Shown here one piece after another: positions 4,830 to 8,850 of a DNA stretch of 64,000 nucleotides (positions are counted from its first letter, which is position 1; every line of letters begins with the position of its first letter). A program made the translations under genes and the position numbers. The DNA lies in NCBI RefSeq assembly GCF_024707485.1, contig NZ_CP102602.1:186001-250000 (forward strand), in the 5' to 3' direction. The stretch is from Thermococcus thermotolerans. GTDB taxonomy: Archaea; Methanobacteriota_B; Thermococci; Thermococcales; Thermococcaceae. The notes under the pieces were generated by a model, which saw nothing but the letters and a program-made list of their open reading frames with translations, made no database searches and had not been told where the DNA came from.

Positions 4830-4985
4830 AAGGAGTTCTGTTACTGAAGCCTTGGCAAATCTGGGCGATGCTTCCAACCACAGCCGAACGCTCTTTGTGC
4901 TCGTCGGAAGGGTCATCAAGCCCTCCACCCGGAGATTAAGAACGTCTATCCGGAGCACATTGAGGAAGCAAAGGGGTGCTTGATT
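4830..4985 (+). pseudogene. Frameshifted remnant of a HEPN-like protein
   Basis: No intact gene lies here, but two adjacent frames give protein-like pieces that join naturally. The first is ALANLGDASNHSRTLF (about 4847-4894). After a one-base shift near 4910 comes HPEIKNVYPEHIEEA (about 4923-4967), ending at TGA 4980. The style resembles the C-terminal part of HEPN-type proteins, which often accompany nucleotidyltransferases or toxins. It sits directly beside the vapBC pair, consistent with a degraded toxin-antitoxin neighbourhood. The assignment to HEPN is tentative. Confidence 0.35.
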
Positions 4986-5310
4986 ACACGCTCTGAAGGT
5001 CCAGTCCTTCAAACTCCTCTTTTATCCACTCGAAGTGCCTGTCCTTCGTGACGAGCGTCAGCTCCCGGTTTATTGCAACAGCCGCAACGATGGCATCAAC
5101 CGCCGGGACTGGCGTTCCCCTCTTCACCATCGCCTGCGATATCTTGATCGCGAGCAAATAGTCCTCAAGGCCCGGTGTTATGACCCTAAGGCCAAGCTCA
5201 AGCGCCCTCGGAAACTCGACGATGTTGAGAACCGTTGTGTATCCATCGAGTTTCTCACCGGATTTGAGGGCATCGATTAGGAAGTTCGTGTCGTAGAGAG
5301 CCTTTTCCAT
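4984..5310 (-). CDS. vapC: VapC-type PIN-domain toxin ribonuclease
   Basis: 108 residues, a usual PIN toxin size or slightly short. Acidic residues in the expected order: YDTNFLIDAL at the N terminus (Asp 7), NIVEFPRALE (Glu 32), PAVDAIVAAVA (Asp near 78) and TLVTKDRHFEWI (Asp near 95). It should cleave RNA and be inhibited by the upstream antitoxin. Its start lies 33 bases inside the end of the antitoxin gene, so the two are translated together. Confidence 0.9.
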   Translation of the reverse strand: MEKALYDTNFLIDALKSGEKLDGYTTVLNIVEFPRALELGLRVITPGLEDYLLAIKISQAMVKRGTPVPAVDAIVAAVAINRELTLVTKDRHFEWIKEEFEGLDLQSV

Positions 5311-5549
5311 TCCGCATCCCTCGTTTCTTTGAGTGCTTCCTCGTACTTCTCGACTGGGGTTTCCTTAAGCTCCTTTCTAAACTCGTCCCCAAGGAGGGAG
5401 AGCACTTCGTCCGAACTAAGCTCCTCAGCCTCGATTTTCGCTAAATATTCCGCTATTGCTCTCCTCGCAACCTCGCTCCACTTTATCTCCGGGTGCTTTT
5501 TCATACGCCTGTAAAGATCGGGGGGAACTGACAGGGTTATGTTGGGCAT
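5277..5549 (-). CDS. vapB: VapB-type antitoxin (ribbon-helix-helix)
   Basis: 90 residues. The first 45 form a ribbon-helix-helix: strand NITLSVPPDLYRRM, then helices around WSEVARRAIAEYLAKIEAE. The acidic/basic C-terminal tail (ELKETPVEKYEEALKETRDAEW) is the part expected to wrap the PIN toxin. The ATG at 5549 has GGTGATAG just ahead. It should neutralise VapC and repress its own promoter. Confidence 0.85.
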   Translation of the reverse strand: MPNITLSVPPDLYRRMKKHPEIKWSEVARRAIAEYLAKIEAEELSSDEVLSLLGDEFRKELKETPVEKYEEALKETRDAEWKRLSTTRTS

Positions 5550-5618: not shown

Positions 5619-7517
5619 TCAATCCTTCAACCACCTCTCCATCCACCCCGCTATCAGCTCCAAGCGCTTGACCCTGTGCTTCGGCTTGCCACTTCTGCTT
5701 AAGTCGTGGTTCTCGCCGGGGAAGATGGCCAGCTCAACGGTCTTGCCCAGGTATTTGAGCGCCGTGTAGAACTGGAGAGCCTCGGGAAGCCAGCAGCGGT
5801 AGTCCTCCATCGAGTGGATTATGAGGAGTGGTGTTTCCACGTTCGGCGCGTACTTCAGCGGGCTCTTCTCCCAGTAGCCGTCGGTGTTGCCCCAGGGGTC
5901 GCCGCCTATCTGGTCGGGCGCGAAGAAGTAGCCGATGTCTGTCGTCCCGAAGAAGCTCACCCAGTTGGAGATTGAGCGTTGCGTAACGGCCGCCTTAAAC
6001 CGCTTCGTGTGTCCGACTATCCAGTTGGTCATGAAGCCGCCGTAGGAGCCGCCGGTGACGCCGAGCCTTTCCCCGTCGATGAAGTCGAATCTCTTCAGGG
6101 CCTCATCAACGACCTCCATGAGGTCAAGGTAATCCCTCTCACCGTAGTGCTCCCTTATGTCGGCGAAGTCCTCGCCGTAGCCGTCGCTTCCTCTTGGATT
6201 GGAGAAGATTACCACGAAACCCTTGGCGGTCAGAACATGGAACTCGTGCATGAAGGAGTAGCCGTAAGCCGTCTTCGGCCCGCCGTGAATCTCAAGAACG
6301 GCCGGATACTTTTTGCCCGGCTCAAAGTCAACGGGCTTCATAATCCAAGCGTCAATCTCAACGCCGTCGCTGGCCCTGACGGTGAAGTGTTCCGGCTTCG
6401 AGAGTTTGTAGTCCTTAATCCAGCCGTTGAAGTCCGTAACCTTCTTTTCTTTTCCATCCTTGAGAACGTAGAGCTCCGTCGGAGTGACCGCGTCCTGGGC
6501 GGTGAAGGCTATGTAGTCCCCAATGGCAAAGCTCTCGACGCTTCTATCGCCGCCGATGACACGCTCGATTTTCCCCTCAAGGTTTACCCTGAAGAGGTTC
6601 GCCCTCGGGCCATCCGTTGCCACGTAATAAACCCAGCCGTCCCTAAAAACCAGCTCTGCTCTCTGGCTTCCCCGGACGTCGCAGTTGAGGGAGTTGTATG
6701 CCGAGCGGTCGAGTTTAGCTGTGAGCTTCCTTAGCTCTCCCGTCTCAGGGTTGTAATGGTATATGTGCGTGTTCGTCGGAATGCCCCTCTGGCGCGTGTT
6801 TGCCTTGAGGATGAACGTACCGTCGTCGAGAGGAATGAAGTCCTGAACGCTCCACTCTCCGGGGGTGAGCCTTTTCGCCCTCCTGCCCTCAAGGACGTAG
6901 AGATCGCTCACCATGGGCTTTCTCTCACGGTCCTCCTGGGCGATGAAGTGGAGCTTCCCATCGTGGAAGCGAACCTGCGAGACGTCGAGGTTCTTCGGCG
7001 TTACGCGCCTCTTTCTGCCTGTCTCAAGGTCAACGAGGTAAACAACGCTTCTCTTCCCGTAGACCCAGCCGACGCCGTTGAACCAGAACGGTATCTCCCT
7101 GATGAGGTGGACGTCGTCCTTCGGCTTCTTCTCGACGTCTATTGGAGTAACGACCGCTATGCTTTTACCATCCTCTGTGAAGCGAAGGTTTTTGATGCCA
7201 TACTTGAACTTCGCTAAAAGCCTTGCCTCGCCGCCGTCCGTTGGAATGACGTAGAGCTCGGCTTCCTTGCTTTCCCTGTCTCGCTTCGAGGTGAAGGCTA
7301 TCAGCTTCCCGTCAGGGGAGAAGCGCGGATTTGAGTCCTTCTTTCCGGAGGTGAAGGGCCTAACCTTTCTGCCGTCGTAGAGGTAGAGCCTCGAGAAGTA
7401 GTCGTCCTTCTCAACGCTTATCTCCGTCACCTGAAAGACGAGCCTTTTCCTGAAGGCATCAATGTTCCCAACGAGCTTGAACTTTCCGAGGTCTTTAATA
7501 TCCAATCCCTCAGTCAT
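5619..7517 (-). CDS. S9-family acylaminoacyl-peptidase/oligopeptidase
   Basis: 632 residues from ATG 7517 (GGTGG upstream; a GTG at 7526 is less likely). The N-terminal 370 residues are a beta-propeller built of WD/TolB-like blades (RFSPDGKLIAFTSKRD, LRFTEDGKSIAVVTP). The C-terminal alpha/beta hydrolase has the nucleophile elbow GGSYGGFMTNW near residue 490, the catalytic Asp in HSMEDYRCW near 568 and the catalytic His in GENHDLSR near 603; HGGPKTAYG forms the oxyanion region. It releases N-blocked amino acids or cleaves short peptides in the cytoplasm. No signal peptide. Family members of 600-640 residues are common in Thermococcales. Confidence 0.92.
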   Translation of the reverse strand: MTEGLDIKDLGKFKLVGNIDAFRKRLVFQVTEISVEKDDYFSRLYLYDGRKVRPFTSGKKDSNPRFSPDGKLIAFTSKRDRESKEAELYVIPTDGGEARLLAKFKYGIKNLRFTEDGKSIAVVTPIDVEKKPKDDVHLIREIPFWFNGVGWVYGKRSVVYLVDLETGRKRRVTPKNLDVSQVRFHDGKLHFIAQEDRERKPMVSDLYVLEGRRAKRLTPGEWSVQDFIPLDDGTFILKANTRQRGIPTNTHIYHYNPETGELRKLTAKLDRSAYNSLNCDVRGSQRAELVFRDGWVYYVATDGPRANLFRVNLEGKIERVIGGDRSVESFAIGDYIAFTAQDAVTPTELYVLKDGKEKKVTDFNGWIKDYKLSKPEHFTVRASDGVEIDAWIMKPVDFEPGKKYPAVLEIHGGPKTAYGYSFMHEFHVLTAKGFVVIFSNPRGSDGYGEDFADIREHYGERDYLDLMEVVDEALKRFDFIDGERLGVTGGSYGGFMTNWIVGHTKRFKAAVTQRSISNWVSFFGTTDIGYFFAPDQIGGDPWGNTDGYWEKSPLKYAPNVETPLLIIHSMEDYRCWLPEALQFYTALKYLGKTVELAIFPGENHDLSRSGKPKHRVKRLELIAGWMERWLKD

Positions 7518-7591
7518 AGAAACCACCGGGTTAATCTCTGCCTTTTCGTATAAAAGCTTAGCGTTTCGATTGAAATTTAAATAAAAGGGGC

Positions 7592-7960
7592 TCAGTGTTT
7601 TGAGGCATTTCCATATTTAGATATAACTAGTGTAGAAACCCCATAGAAAATACTAATAATGGCCCCAAAGGTTATATAACGGACTAGTTGGGAATACCCT
7701 CCAAGGAATATTTTGATCAATAGTACGGCTGTAGTTGCTGTTATTATAATGGTGACTCCGTAGCTCCTACTTTTGTTTTTTGAAAAAAGAAGTCCACTTA
7801 AATACCAGTATTCAATTGTAACTGCCGTTGTGATCATCACGAGAATCAGACTATCTACCACCCAGTTTTGAGGATTTGTTTCTCGGATATCTAATATTGC
7901 CCCACTTAAAAAGAAAAACGAGAAAAACATTGAATACAAGAATTTTCTCTTTTTGGTCAT
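7592..7960 (-). CDS. Small four-helix membrane protein, possible immunity protein
   Basis: About 122 residues from ATG 7960 (GGTGA upstream; a start at 8002 would overlap the previous gene). Hydrophobic helices at roughly residues 7-25, 36-57, 65-85 and 95-113, with basic residues between them. No known family recognised. It begins 10 bases after the stop of the Cys-rich secreted protein, so the two are almost surely co-transcribed. Both are clearly richer in A+T than flanking genes. The small multi-helix form and the position resemble bacteriocin immunity proteins, but this is inference. Confidence 0.6.
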   Translation of the reverse strand: MTKKRKFLYSMFFSFFFLSGAILDIRETNPQNWVVDSLILVMITTAVTIEYWYLSGLLFSKNKSRSYGVTIIITATTAVLLIKIFLGGYSQLVRYITFGAIISIFYGVSTLVISKYGNASKH

Positions 7961-7970
7961 TCCAATCACC

Positions 7971-8666
7971 TCACCTATGGAAAGGAACGCATCTACTTCC
8001 AAACTCAGAGTTTTGATTAATGCACCAAATTGGACATACTGTTGTTAAGCATGTGATACATAATGGATTCTCTATCCCTCCAAGGCAGAAAATCCAGCAT
8101 GACTCGCCACAGCACTTGTAAACTCCTACCCAATCCGTACTGCAAATATAGGGGTCACATTGCTCCATATACCCACAATCAGAGTTGCTAGAACATTCGT
8201 GTGTACAGGAGCTTACTTGGATAGCATACCCGTTGGTGGTTGTTTTTCTTATTGTCACATTGTTGTCTCTTATCTCAAACAGATATGACTTTACTTTCAC
8301 TCCCTGTACTGGCTTTGAGAACTCGTACAGTGCTATCACGTGCTTCTTGTCCTTCAATGGAATTCCCATGGCGAGCATTGTTATCTCTTCCCCGTTGTAC
8401 TCAATTGTGTGCTTTACAATCTTCACGTGAGAGTAATCAACGTTCCAAGGCTTTGCCAGCTTCCAGAAGTCTCTAGTGGTTGAGAGCTTGAAGAACACAT
8501 GGGCCTCTGACCAATTCTCTTGGGCCCTGCTTACAGGTTTCACAACGGCAAACGGGTTAACACAACCATCCACTTTTTGATACTTGGGGTAGCTGACCAC
8601 GTAGGCGCCGTATGCCCCAATCAACAGCAAAACCACAAACATGGCCAGCAGTGCACGCTTCCGCAT
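7971..8666 (-). CDS. Secreted or membrane-anchored Cys-rich protein, possible archaeocin precursor
   Basis: 231 residues. A basic start and one hydrophobic segment (residues 5-25) act as signal peptide or anchor. Residues 30-150 form an ordinary soluble domain. Residues 156-227 contain 14 cysteines, several as CxxC or CC pairs (SCTHEC, SNSDC, KCCGESC, CITC, CPIWC), with a hydrophobic Gly-containing core (CWIFCLGG). This two-part plan, with a leader domain and a Cys-rich hydrophobic tail, recalls halocin C8-type precursors; a disulfide-stabilised surface domain is the alternative. A small membrane protein follows directly. The region is AT-rich. Confidence 0.65.
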   Translation of the reverse strand: MRKRALLAMFVVLLLIGAYGAYVVSYPKYQKVDGCVNPFAVVKPVSRAQENWSEAHVFFKLSTTRDFWKLAKPWNVDYSHVKIVKHTIEYNGEEITMLAMGIPLKDKKHVIALYEFSKPVQGVKVKSYLFEIRDNNVTIRKTTTNGYAIQVSSCTHECSSNSDCGYMEQCDPYICSTDWVGVYKCCGESCWIFCLGGIENPLCITCLTTVCPIWCINQNSEFGSRCVPFHR

Positions 8667-8850
8667 CGACCCTCCCCAACGGGTTCTTGCATTAACTTTT
8701 TTACACTCATCGTATATAACACTTTCGCTTAAAAGAAGATGGTTATATGGGGATTGTCTATGATTTAATTTGATTTGTAGTACTTAATTTAAAGACTATG
8801 AGCTACCTTTTTAAATCCCCCTTCTCCCTTTTATCCGGGAGGTGGCGGCC

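Follow-up and report, generated by a model that had tools for sequence, protein, structure and literature searches.

Genes A and B of Thermococcus thermotolerans: a candidate polymorphic archaeocin and immunity pair

Introduction

To our knowledge, antagonism among hyperthermophilic archaea is almost undescribed, and bacteriocin-type weapons are hardly known in Thermococcales. The halocin C8 precursor carries its own immunity protein as its N-terminal part. Class II bacteriocins are accompanied by dedicated small membrane immunity proteins, and immunity genes without a bacteriocin also occur. A further point of reference is given by polymorphic toxin systems (Zhang et al. 2012), in the form described in PMC6393860 and PMC8416519. 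Moreover, VARTIG, a hypervariable Ig-domain module of Thermococcales, has been proposed to serve self/non-self recognition (PMC8416519).

The locus considered here lies in a stretch of 64,000 nucleotides of Thermococcus thermotolerans (contig NZ_CP102602.1, positions 186,001 to 250,000), referred to as the window, and consists of two adjacent genes, A and B. With a probability of roughly 0.8, A–B is considered a toxin–immunity pair of the archaeocin kind, organised as a polymorphic toxin system, with a killing function proposed from the genetics of the locus and its relatives. The effector role of A is proposed on genetic grounds alone, as the protein has no homology to known toxins.

Organisation of the A–B Gene Pair

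A first-pass annotation of the letters alone had described a secreted Cys-rich protein followed by a small membrane protein, and this two-gene arrangement is real: the 231-aa A and the 122-aa B are encoded on the minus strand, with A upstream and only 10 bp (7961–7970) between the stop codon of A and the ATG of B (Table 1). An alternative in-frame TTG start would extend B to 136 aa and make it overlap the end of A. The pair is AT-rich relative to its surroundings, as had been remarked, with a G+C content of 41.7% against 53.5% for the window, a value reached by only about 1% of the window's 1,075-bp stretches. It is flanked on one side by a gene that we take to encode an S9-type peptidase (7526..5619, minus strand) and on the other by what is presumably tmcA (8842.., plus strand), both names being our own reading of the sequence. 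One gene away from A–B, at 4984–5549 on the minus strand, two adjacent small genes resemble, by eye, those of a PIN-domain toxin of the VapC type (108 aa) and a VapB-like antitoxin (90 aa).

Table 1. Coordinates of the features of the A–B locus in the window.
Feature	Position	Strand	Description	Basis
Gene A	7971..8666	-	231 aa, ATG start at 8666; predicted secreted/anchored precursor, carrier and Cys-rich C-terminal effector domain	ORF and homologues
Gene B	7592..7960	-	122 aa, ATG start; polytopic membrane protein, predicted type-specific immunity protein	
A residues 1–25	8592..8666	-	Positively charged N-terminus and hydrophobic signal/anchor helix	Sequence; AF2 helix 2–25
A residues 1–125	8292..8666	-	Conserved carrier with one invariant Cys (C35)	Alignments, Cys count
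A residues 147–231	7974..8228	-	Type-variable Cys-rich effector domain (predicted), 14 Cys, following invariant N145-G146	
Predicted BRE/TATA promoter	8710..8733	-	AAGCGAAAGTGTTATATACGA; conserved before A homologues, including several toxin-dead loci	Upstream alignment
G-rich leader	8667..8682	-	CCGTTGGGGAGGGTCG; conserved, directly before the A ATG, ribosome-binding site	Upstream alignment
Segment of A absent from sister genome G037 (L150)	8062..8643	-	582 bp	blastn alignment

Hydropathy places a single hydrophobic segment in A, at the N-terminal end and next to a charged start. With this charged start and hydrophobic helix, A is predicted to be an exported precursor; no double-glycine leader was seen in it and no dedicated ABC exporter lies directly beside it in the window. 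In the 31 near-full-length proteins, the intact set used for all Cys and downstream-gene counts, the carrier extends over about 125 residues to the sequence PVQGVK and is followed by a variable linker, an invariant Asn-Gly and the Cys-rich domain. The single carrier Cys is conserved, being missing only in L078, which is truncated at its N-terminus. The leader before the A ATG contains a run of 2–12 G across relatives while the rest of it is conserved, and this run could tune translation. Phase variation was considered for its varying length, but the run lies in the leader and no such claim is made.

The Cysteine-Rich Domain

A contains 15 Cys, namely C35 and 14 located at residues 154–226, so that the earlier count of 14 in the last ~75 residues was right to within three residues. 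Among the other non-overlapping window ORFs of at least 150 aa, the next Cys-densest stretch of 80 residues holds 8, and the mean Cys frequency of the non-overlapping ORFs of this size is 0.57%. Across the family, the Cys-rich domain spans ~80–97 residues and carries 14, 16, 18 or 20 Cys, an even number in 31/31 proteins and in all 14 types; if these types are independent, even parity throughout would arise by chance with a probability of about 6e-5. Moreover, Cys disappear or arise two columns at a time, C185 together with C215 and C186 together with C211, while the columns of C174 and of the Cys before ExG form a further pair, both being absent in the window type. The 14 Cys of the A domain thus probably form seven disulphides. 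Cys parity and the paired columns, in agreement with the helices at 179–190, 201–210 and 213–218 of an AF2 model of medium confidence (pLDDT 72, pTM 0.45), point to a fully disulphide-bonded domain containing a cross-linked helical hairpin.

A match of the Cys-rich tail to an unrelated enzymatic or structural domain, which would have spoken against an archaeocin, was looked for in Pfam, NCBIfam, PADLOC, PHROGs and by profile comparison, and none was obtained. Comparison of the AF2 model with the PDB gave no usable match (best E 0.69). A WAP-like fold was rejected, as the C-domain profile touches omwaprin only at a non-significant E of 0.054. Furthermore, no recognisable secretion/trafficking or toxin domain was found in A or the homologues tested (Pfam, NCBIfam, PADLOC, PHROG and fold search), and neither A nor B matched any family of Pfam, NCBIfam, PHROGs or PADLOC.

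Distribution and Diversity of the Family

Relatives of A are present in 42/94 Thermococcaceae genomes, and a profile search across the phylum found homologues in 46/115 genomes, all of them Thermococcaceae. Scanning of genome contigs with the single A sequence returned nothing, and the alignment-based scan of these contigs returned nine Thermococcus-type loci. By similarity, the C-domains sort into at least 14 types, and the window type stands alone. On the grounds of comparative genomics, A–B is counted as one member of a polymorphic, toxin–immunity-like family restricted to Thermococcaceae.

The low G+C content, the patchy distribution and the fixed insertion sites described below would also suit cargo of viruses or plasmids, acting in superinfection exclusion or addiction. 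This explanation is regarded as very improbable, the least probable of those considered here, because no relatives of A occur in viral contigs, plasmids or PHROGs, the islands consist of A, B and orphan B genes, no integrase having been noticed in them, and A has a predicted export signal, unlike an intracellular addiction toxin.

The Downstream Membrane Genes

B is hydrophobic throughout and has 3–4 transmembrane (TM) segments by hydropathy, which agrees with its description as a membrane protein and leaves the proposed four helices as the upper end of a range. Its only real homologue is found in the genome G037, where it too adjoins an A of this type, there reduced to a remnant; weak matches to membrane proteins (E 0.001–0.01) and to the EhaA and 7TMR families of Pfam (E 0.05–0.09) were judged to be due to chance.

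Despite this isolation in sequence, the arrangement recurs. A same-strand ORF of 65–140 aa with at least two TM segments lies directly after intact A at 28/31 loci, against 9/399 control genes, the controls being the other genes in the same loci. In the window, A is alone among 51 non-overlapping ORFs in having such a gene directly downstream. The loci that fall outside these limits probably include the L062/L066/L077 type, which is followed by a shorter protein with one predicted TM segment, and a downstream membrane ORF of some kind is present at 31/31 intact loci. Homologues of A that never stand beside a membrane gene, an outcome that would have told against the pairing, are therefore not what synteny across Thermococcales reveals. 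The expected pairing holds, but the membrane gene is not the same one each time; it is a different gene, specific to the C-type. Across the family, the B proteins belong to many unrelated families, all tiny and without a soluble domain.

Covariation and Exchange of Cassettes

Among the 28 loci, B similarity follows C-domain similarity with r = 0.71, and the partial correlation given the carrier is likewise 0.71, a value reached in 0/5000 permutations, with shared ancestry left uncorrected. By contrast, the carrier correlates only with r 0.14 with the C-domain and 0.11 with B, and the partial Mantel correlation of carrier with B given C is 0.01. No pair of B proteins above 0.2 similarity has low C similarity in these 28 loci. 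The reverse relation is looser, with similar C-domains beside dissimilar B proteins in L054/L069 (C 0.70, B 0.08) and L048/L060 (C 0.69, B 0.13). Because similar C-domains are sometimes combined with dissimilar B, it follows that B can be replaced or diverge quickly in some loci.

L046 and L059, which belong to different genera, share mostly 90–100% identity from ~300 bp upstream to about codon 100 (~nt +300), falling to ~50% at codon ~120 and through the C-domain and B, and rising again to 83–92% in the downstream flank gene. In L051 and L070, also from different genera, the C-domains share 79% identity and the carriers 58%. These identity patterns indicate that the effector domain and B are transferred together between genera as a cassette, with recombination taking place within the carrier and the flanking sequence.

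Two further explanations meet this evidence differently. In the first, A would be a disulphide-rich surface or redox protein involved in the envelope or in metal/sulphur handling, B its anchor or redox partner, and the diversity a fast drift within a dispensable envelope module. An abundance of Cys would fit a protein that stays stable outside the cell at high temperature, the N-terminal helix might serve as an anchor and the fold search gave no toxin fold. Nevertheless, drift predicts joint divergence, whereas the carrier shows little correlation with C or B, C and B move as a cassette, and no redox or metal family was matched. This reading is considered improbable, and the retention of B described below weighs against it as well, as a partner should decay along with A.

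In the second, A–B would be a polymorphic pair for self/non-self recognition or signalling, with a Cys-rich ligand (a pheromone or kin tag) and B as its receptor or membrane partner. Since covariation and swapping taken alone would fit ligand–receptor pairs equally, this is the main rival of the toxin–immunity reading. A lacks a recognised toxin domain, and a role in self/non-self recognition has already been proposed for VARTIG in Thermococcales (PMC8416519). It is nonetheless held to be unlikely, on the evidence of loci where B survives without A.

Loss of A and Retention of B

When cases at contig edges are excluded, 13 loci carry a broken A. At least one open B frame is present in 10 of them, often with several types in tandem, the loci without a clearly intact B being L057, L074 and L085, and several broken-A loci visibly retain the conserved promoter. 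The sister genome G037 contains the window's own locus, with the same neighbours (TmcA 98% identical), the promoter and an intact B, and lacks most of A (582 bp, Table 1). Its B shares 83% identity with that of the window at a pairwise dN/dS of 0.14, a value that includes the time before toxin loss, and elsewhere G037 carries an intact A of another type (L046). The window genome, G000, offers the mirror image: at the tldD site (L082, C1:~554703), a second A is truncated to the carrier up to residue ~53 and an L062-type tail fragment, next to an open B of the L062 type. In G072, the window site is empty, with the S9 and TmcA genes directly adjacent.

Side by side with these cases, L087 (G014), L088 (G023) and L089 (G016) have the first ~20 residues of A next to or joined with its last ~29, and behind this remnant stand two or three B-type genes that differ in type, forming immunity-only islands.

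Tandem B genes of unrelated types without partners, together with islands holding only B, resemble accumulating resistances. For ligand–receptor recognition, they would imply a receptor repertoire without signalling domains, which is less natural for proteins as tiny as B.

The tldD Site

A is divergent from tldD at 24 loci. In 15 other genomes this site is empty, with only 115–141 bp from tldD to the next gene, and at L117, L124, L130 and L138 it holds B-type genes with no intact A. Occupied and empty sites are alike up to TTTCGATGGGGGTCGAAAGGAT and then diverge. An inverted repeat, TTTCGA-N6-TCGAAA, is found at the left empty/occupied junction, in the tldD–cupin intergenic region (e.g., L114 ~270–300), and could be an insertion or regulator site.

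In bacteria, TldD/TldE matures microcin B17, and by analogy it might take part in the processing of A. A role of tldDE as a dedicated partner was rejected, since tldD is near-universal in Thermococcaceae genomes with or without A and the window A–B is not beside it; for the same reasons, the tldD locus is treated mainly as an insertion site.

Proposed Mechanism and Significance

Taken together, the covariation of C-domain and B, the swapping of cassettes, the retention of B and the polymorphism of the sites support the earlier proposal of a secreted Cys-rich archaeocin with a membrane immunity protein in an acquired cassette. In the toxin–immunity reading, expression from the conserved promoter would yield an A protein that enters the membrane by its N-terminal helix and leaves the remainder outside, and the carrier would handle export and display. 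The C-terminal domain would be the effector, folded as a disulphide-locked helical hairpin, and a cut close to the invariant Asn-Gly would probably set it free. Most likely, it would attack related Thermococcales without the matching B, acting on their membrane or on a protein in it, while B in the membrane of the producer would neutralise its own C-type only.

A more extensive proposal, to which we give slightly better than even odds, is that A–B represents a Thermococcaceae-specific and undescribed family of polymorphic, disulphide-locked archaeocins distinct from halocin C8, in which 14 or more effector types occur, cassettes are exchanged between genera, the immunity-only islands at tldD would be accumulated resistance and TldD/TldE might act in processing. 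The novelty of the family is provisional, because a survey published in 2019 by Makarova and colleagues, on the antimicrobial peptides and polymorphic toxins of archaea, may, judging by its reported aim, list it as a candidate.

The signature of an arms race would thereby be readable in complete genomes, as type-matched effector and immunity genes, swapping across genera and immunity that outlasts the weapon. Moreover, being small, the genes lend themselves to cloning and to tests in genetically tractable Thermococcus, and the system would offer effector/immunity pairs that are already defined, strains that are resistant or naive by nature, and multi-disulphide peptides that are stable to heat. 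The questions of whether Thermococcales use peptides to kill one another, and of how a producer is spared, become directly testable.

Comparison with Known Systems

Membership of A in the halocin C8 type, suggested in the first-pass annotation along with a profile check, did not hold. The TIGR04449 profile (cut-off 24 bits) matched neither A nor, with E values up to 10 admitted, any of five diverse homologues, and alignment of 11 A C-domains with eight Thermococcus TIGR04449 domains by hhalign gave a probability of 0.1%; A is thus rejected as a halocin C8 homologue. True members were located by a genome-wide search at other loci of the window genome, namely a protein of 45 bits at G000 C1:1424752–1424973 (L094), along with a marginal match at C1:1620715–1620948.

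L094 contains a full precursor and a truncated second copy with another C-terminus, with small membrane genes between and after them, and is a second polymorphic archaeocin locus, unrelated to A–B. The TIGR04449 precursors of other Thermococcus genomes (L092, L093 and L095–L099) do not all share one N-terminal carrier, at least two being represented, and the small TM proteins encoded after them vary in sequence, so that their layout matches that of the A family.

The likeness to halocin C8 is one of design: both are archaeal precursors in which an N-terminal part precedes a hydrophobic C-terminal peptide that is rich in Cys and contains Gly, and the TIGR04449 proteins of Thermococcus, including those of the window genome, also have a small membrane protein downstream. 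However, the Cys spacing is different, the A family having 14–20 Cys with CC pairs, and the A carrier is common to 14 effector types while a separate membrane gene tracks the type.

VARTIG is likewise specific to Thermococcales, with a hypervariable C-terminus, downstream membrane proteins that follow the subtype and recombination between species (PMC8416519). VARTIG proteins, however, are large and contain Ig domains (arCOG07710, PMC8416519), whereas A is much smaller and Cys-rich, and the Pfam Ig domain matched neither A nor its homologues. Class II bacteriocins share with A–B the plan, proposed for the latter, of a small secreted effector adjoined by a small cognate immunity protein, but show no sequence relation to it, and neither a double-glycine leader in A nor a dedicated ABC exporter directly beside it was seen in the window.

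As regards polymorphic toxin systems, the A carrier is only ~125 aa long, with a signal/anchor in place of a known secretion domain, and the effector is small and disulphide-rich, not a nuclease or other enzyme. In common with such systems, A–B combines a constant N-terminal carrier with an exchangeable C-terminal effector, has a candidate type-specific immunity gene immediately downstream (by the 28/31 and 9/399 counts and covariation), and is represented at some loci by tandem arrays of effector remnants and partnerless immunity genes. A–B may therefore be likened to a polymorphic toxin system in miniature and, at the same time, to a bacteriocin with its dedicated immunity.
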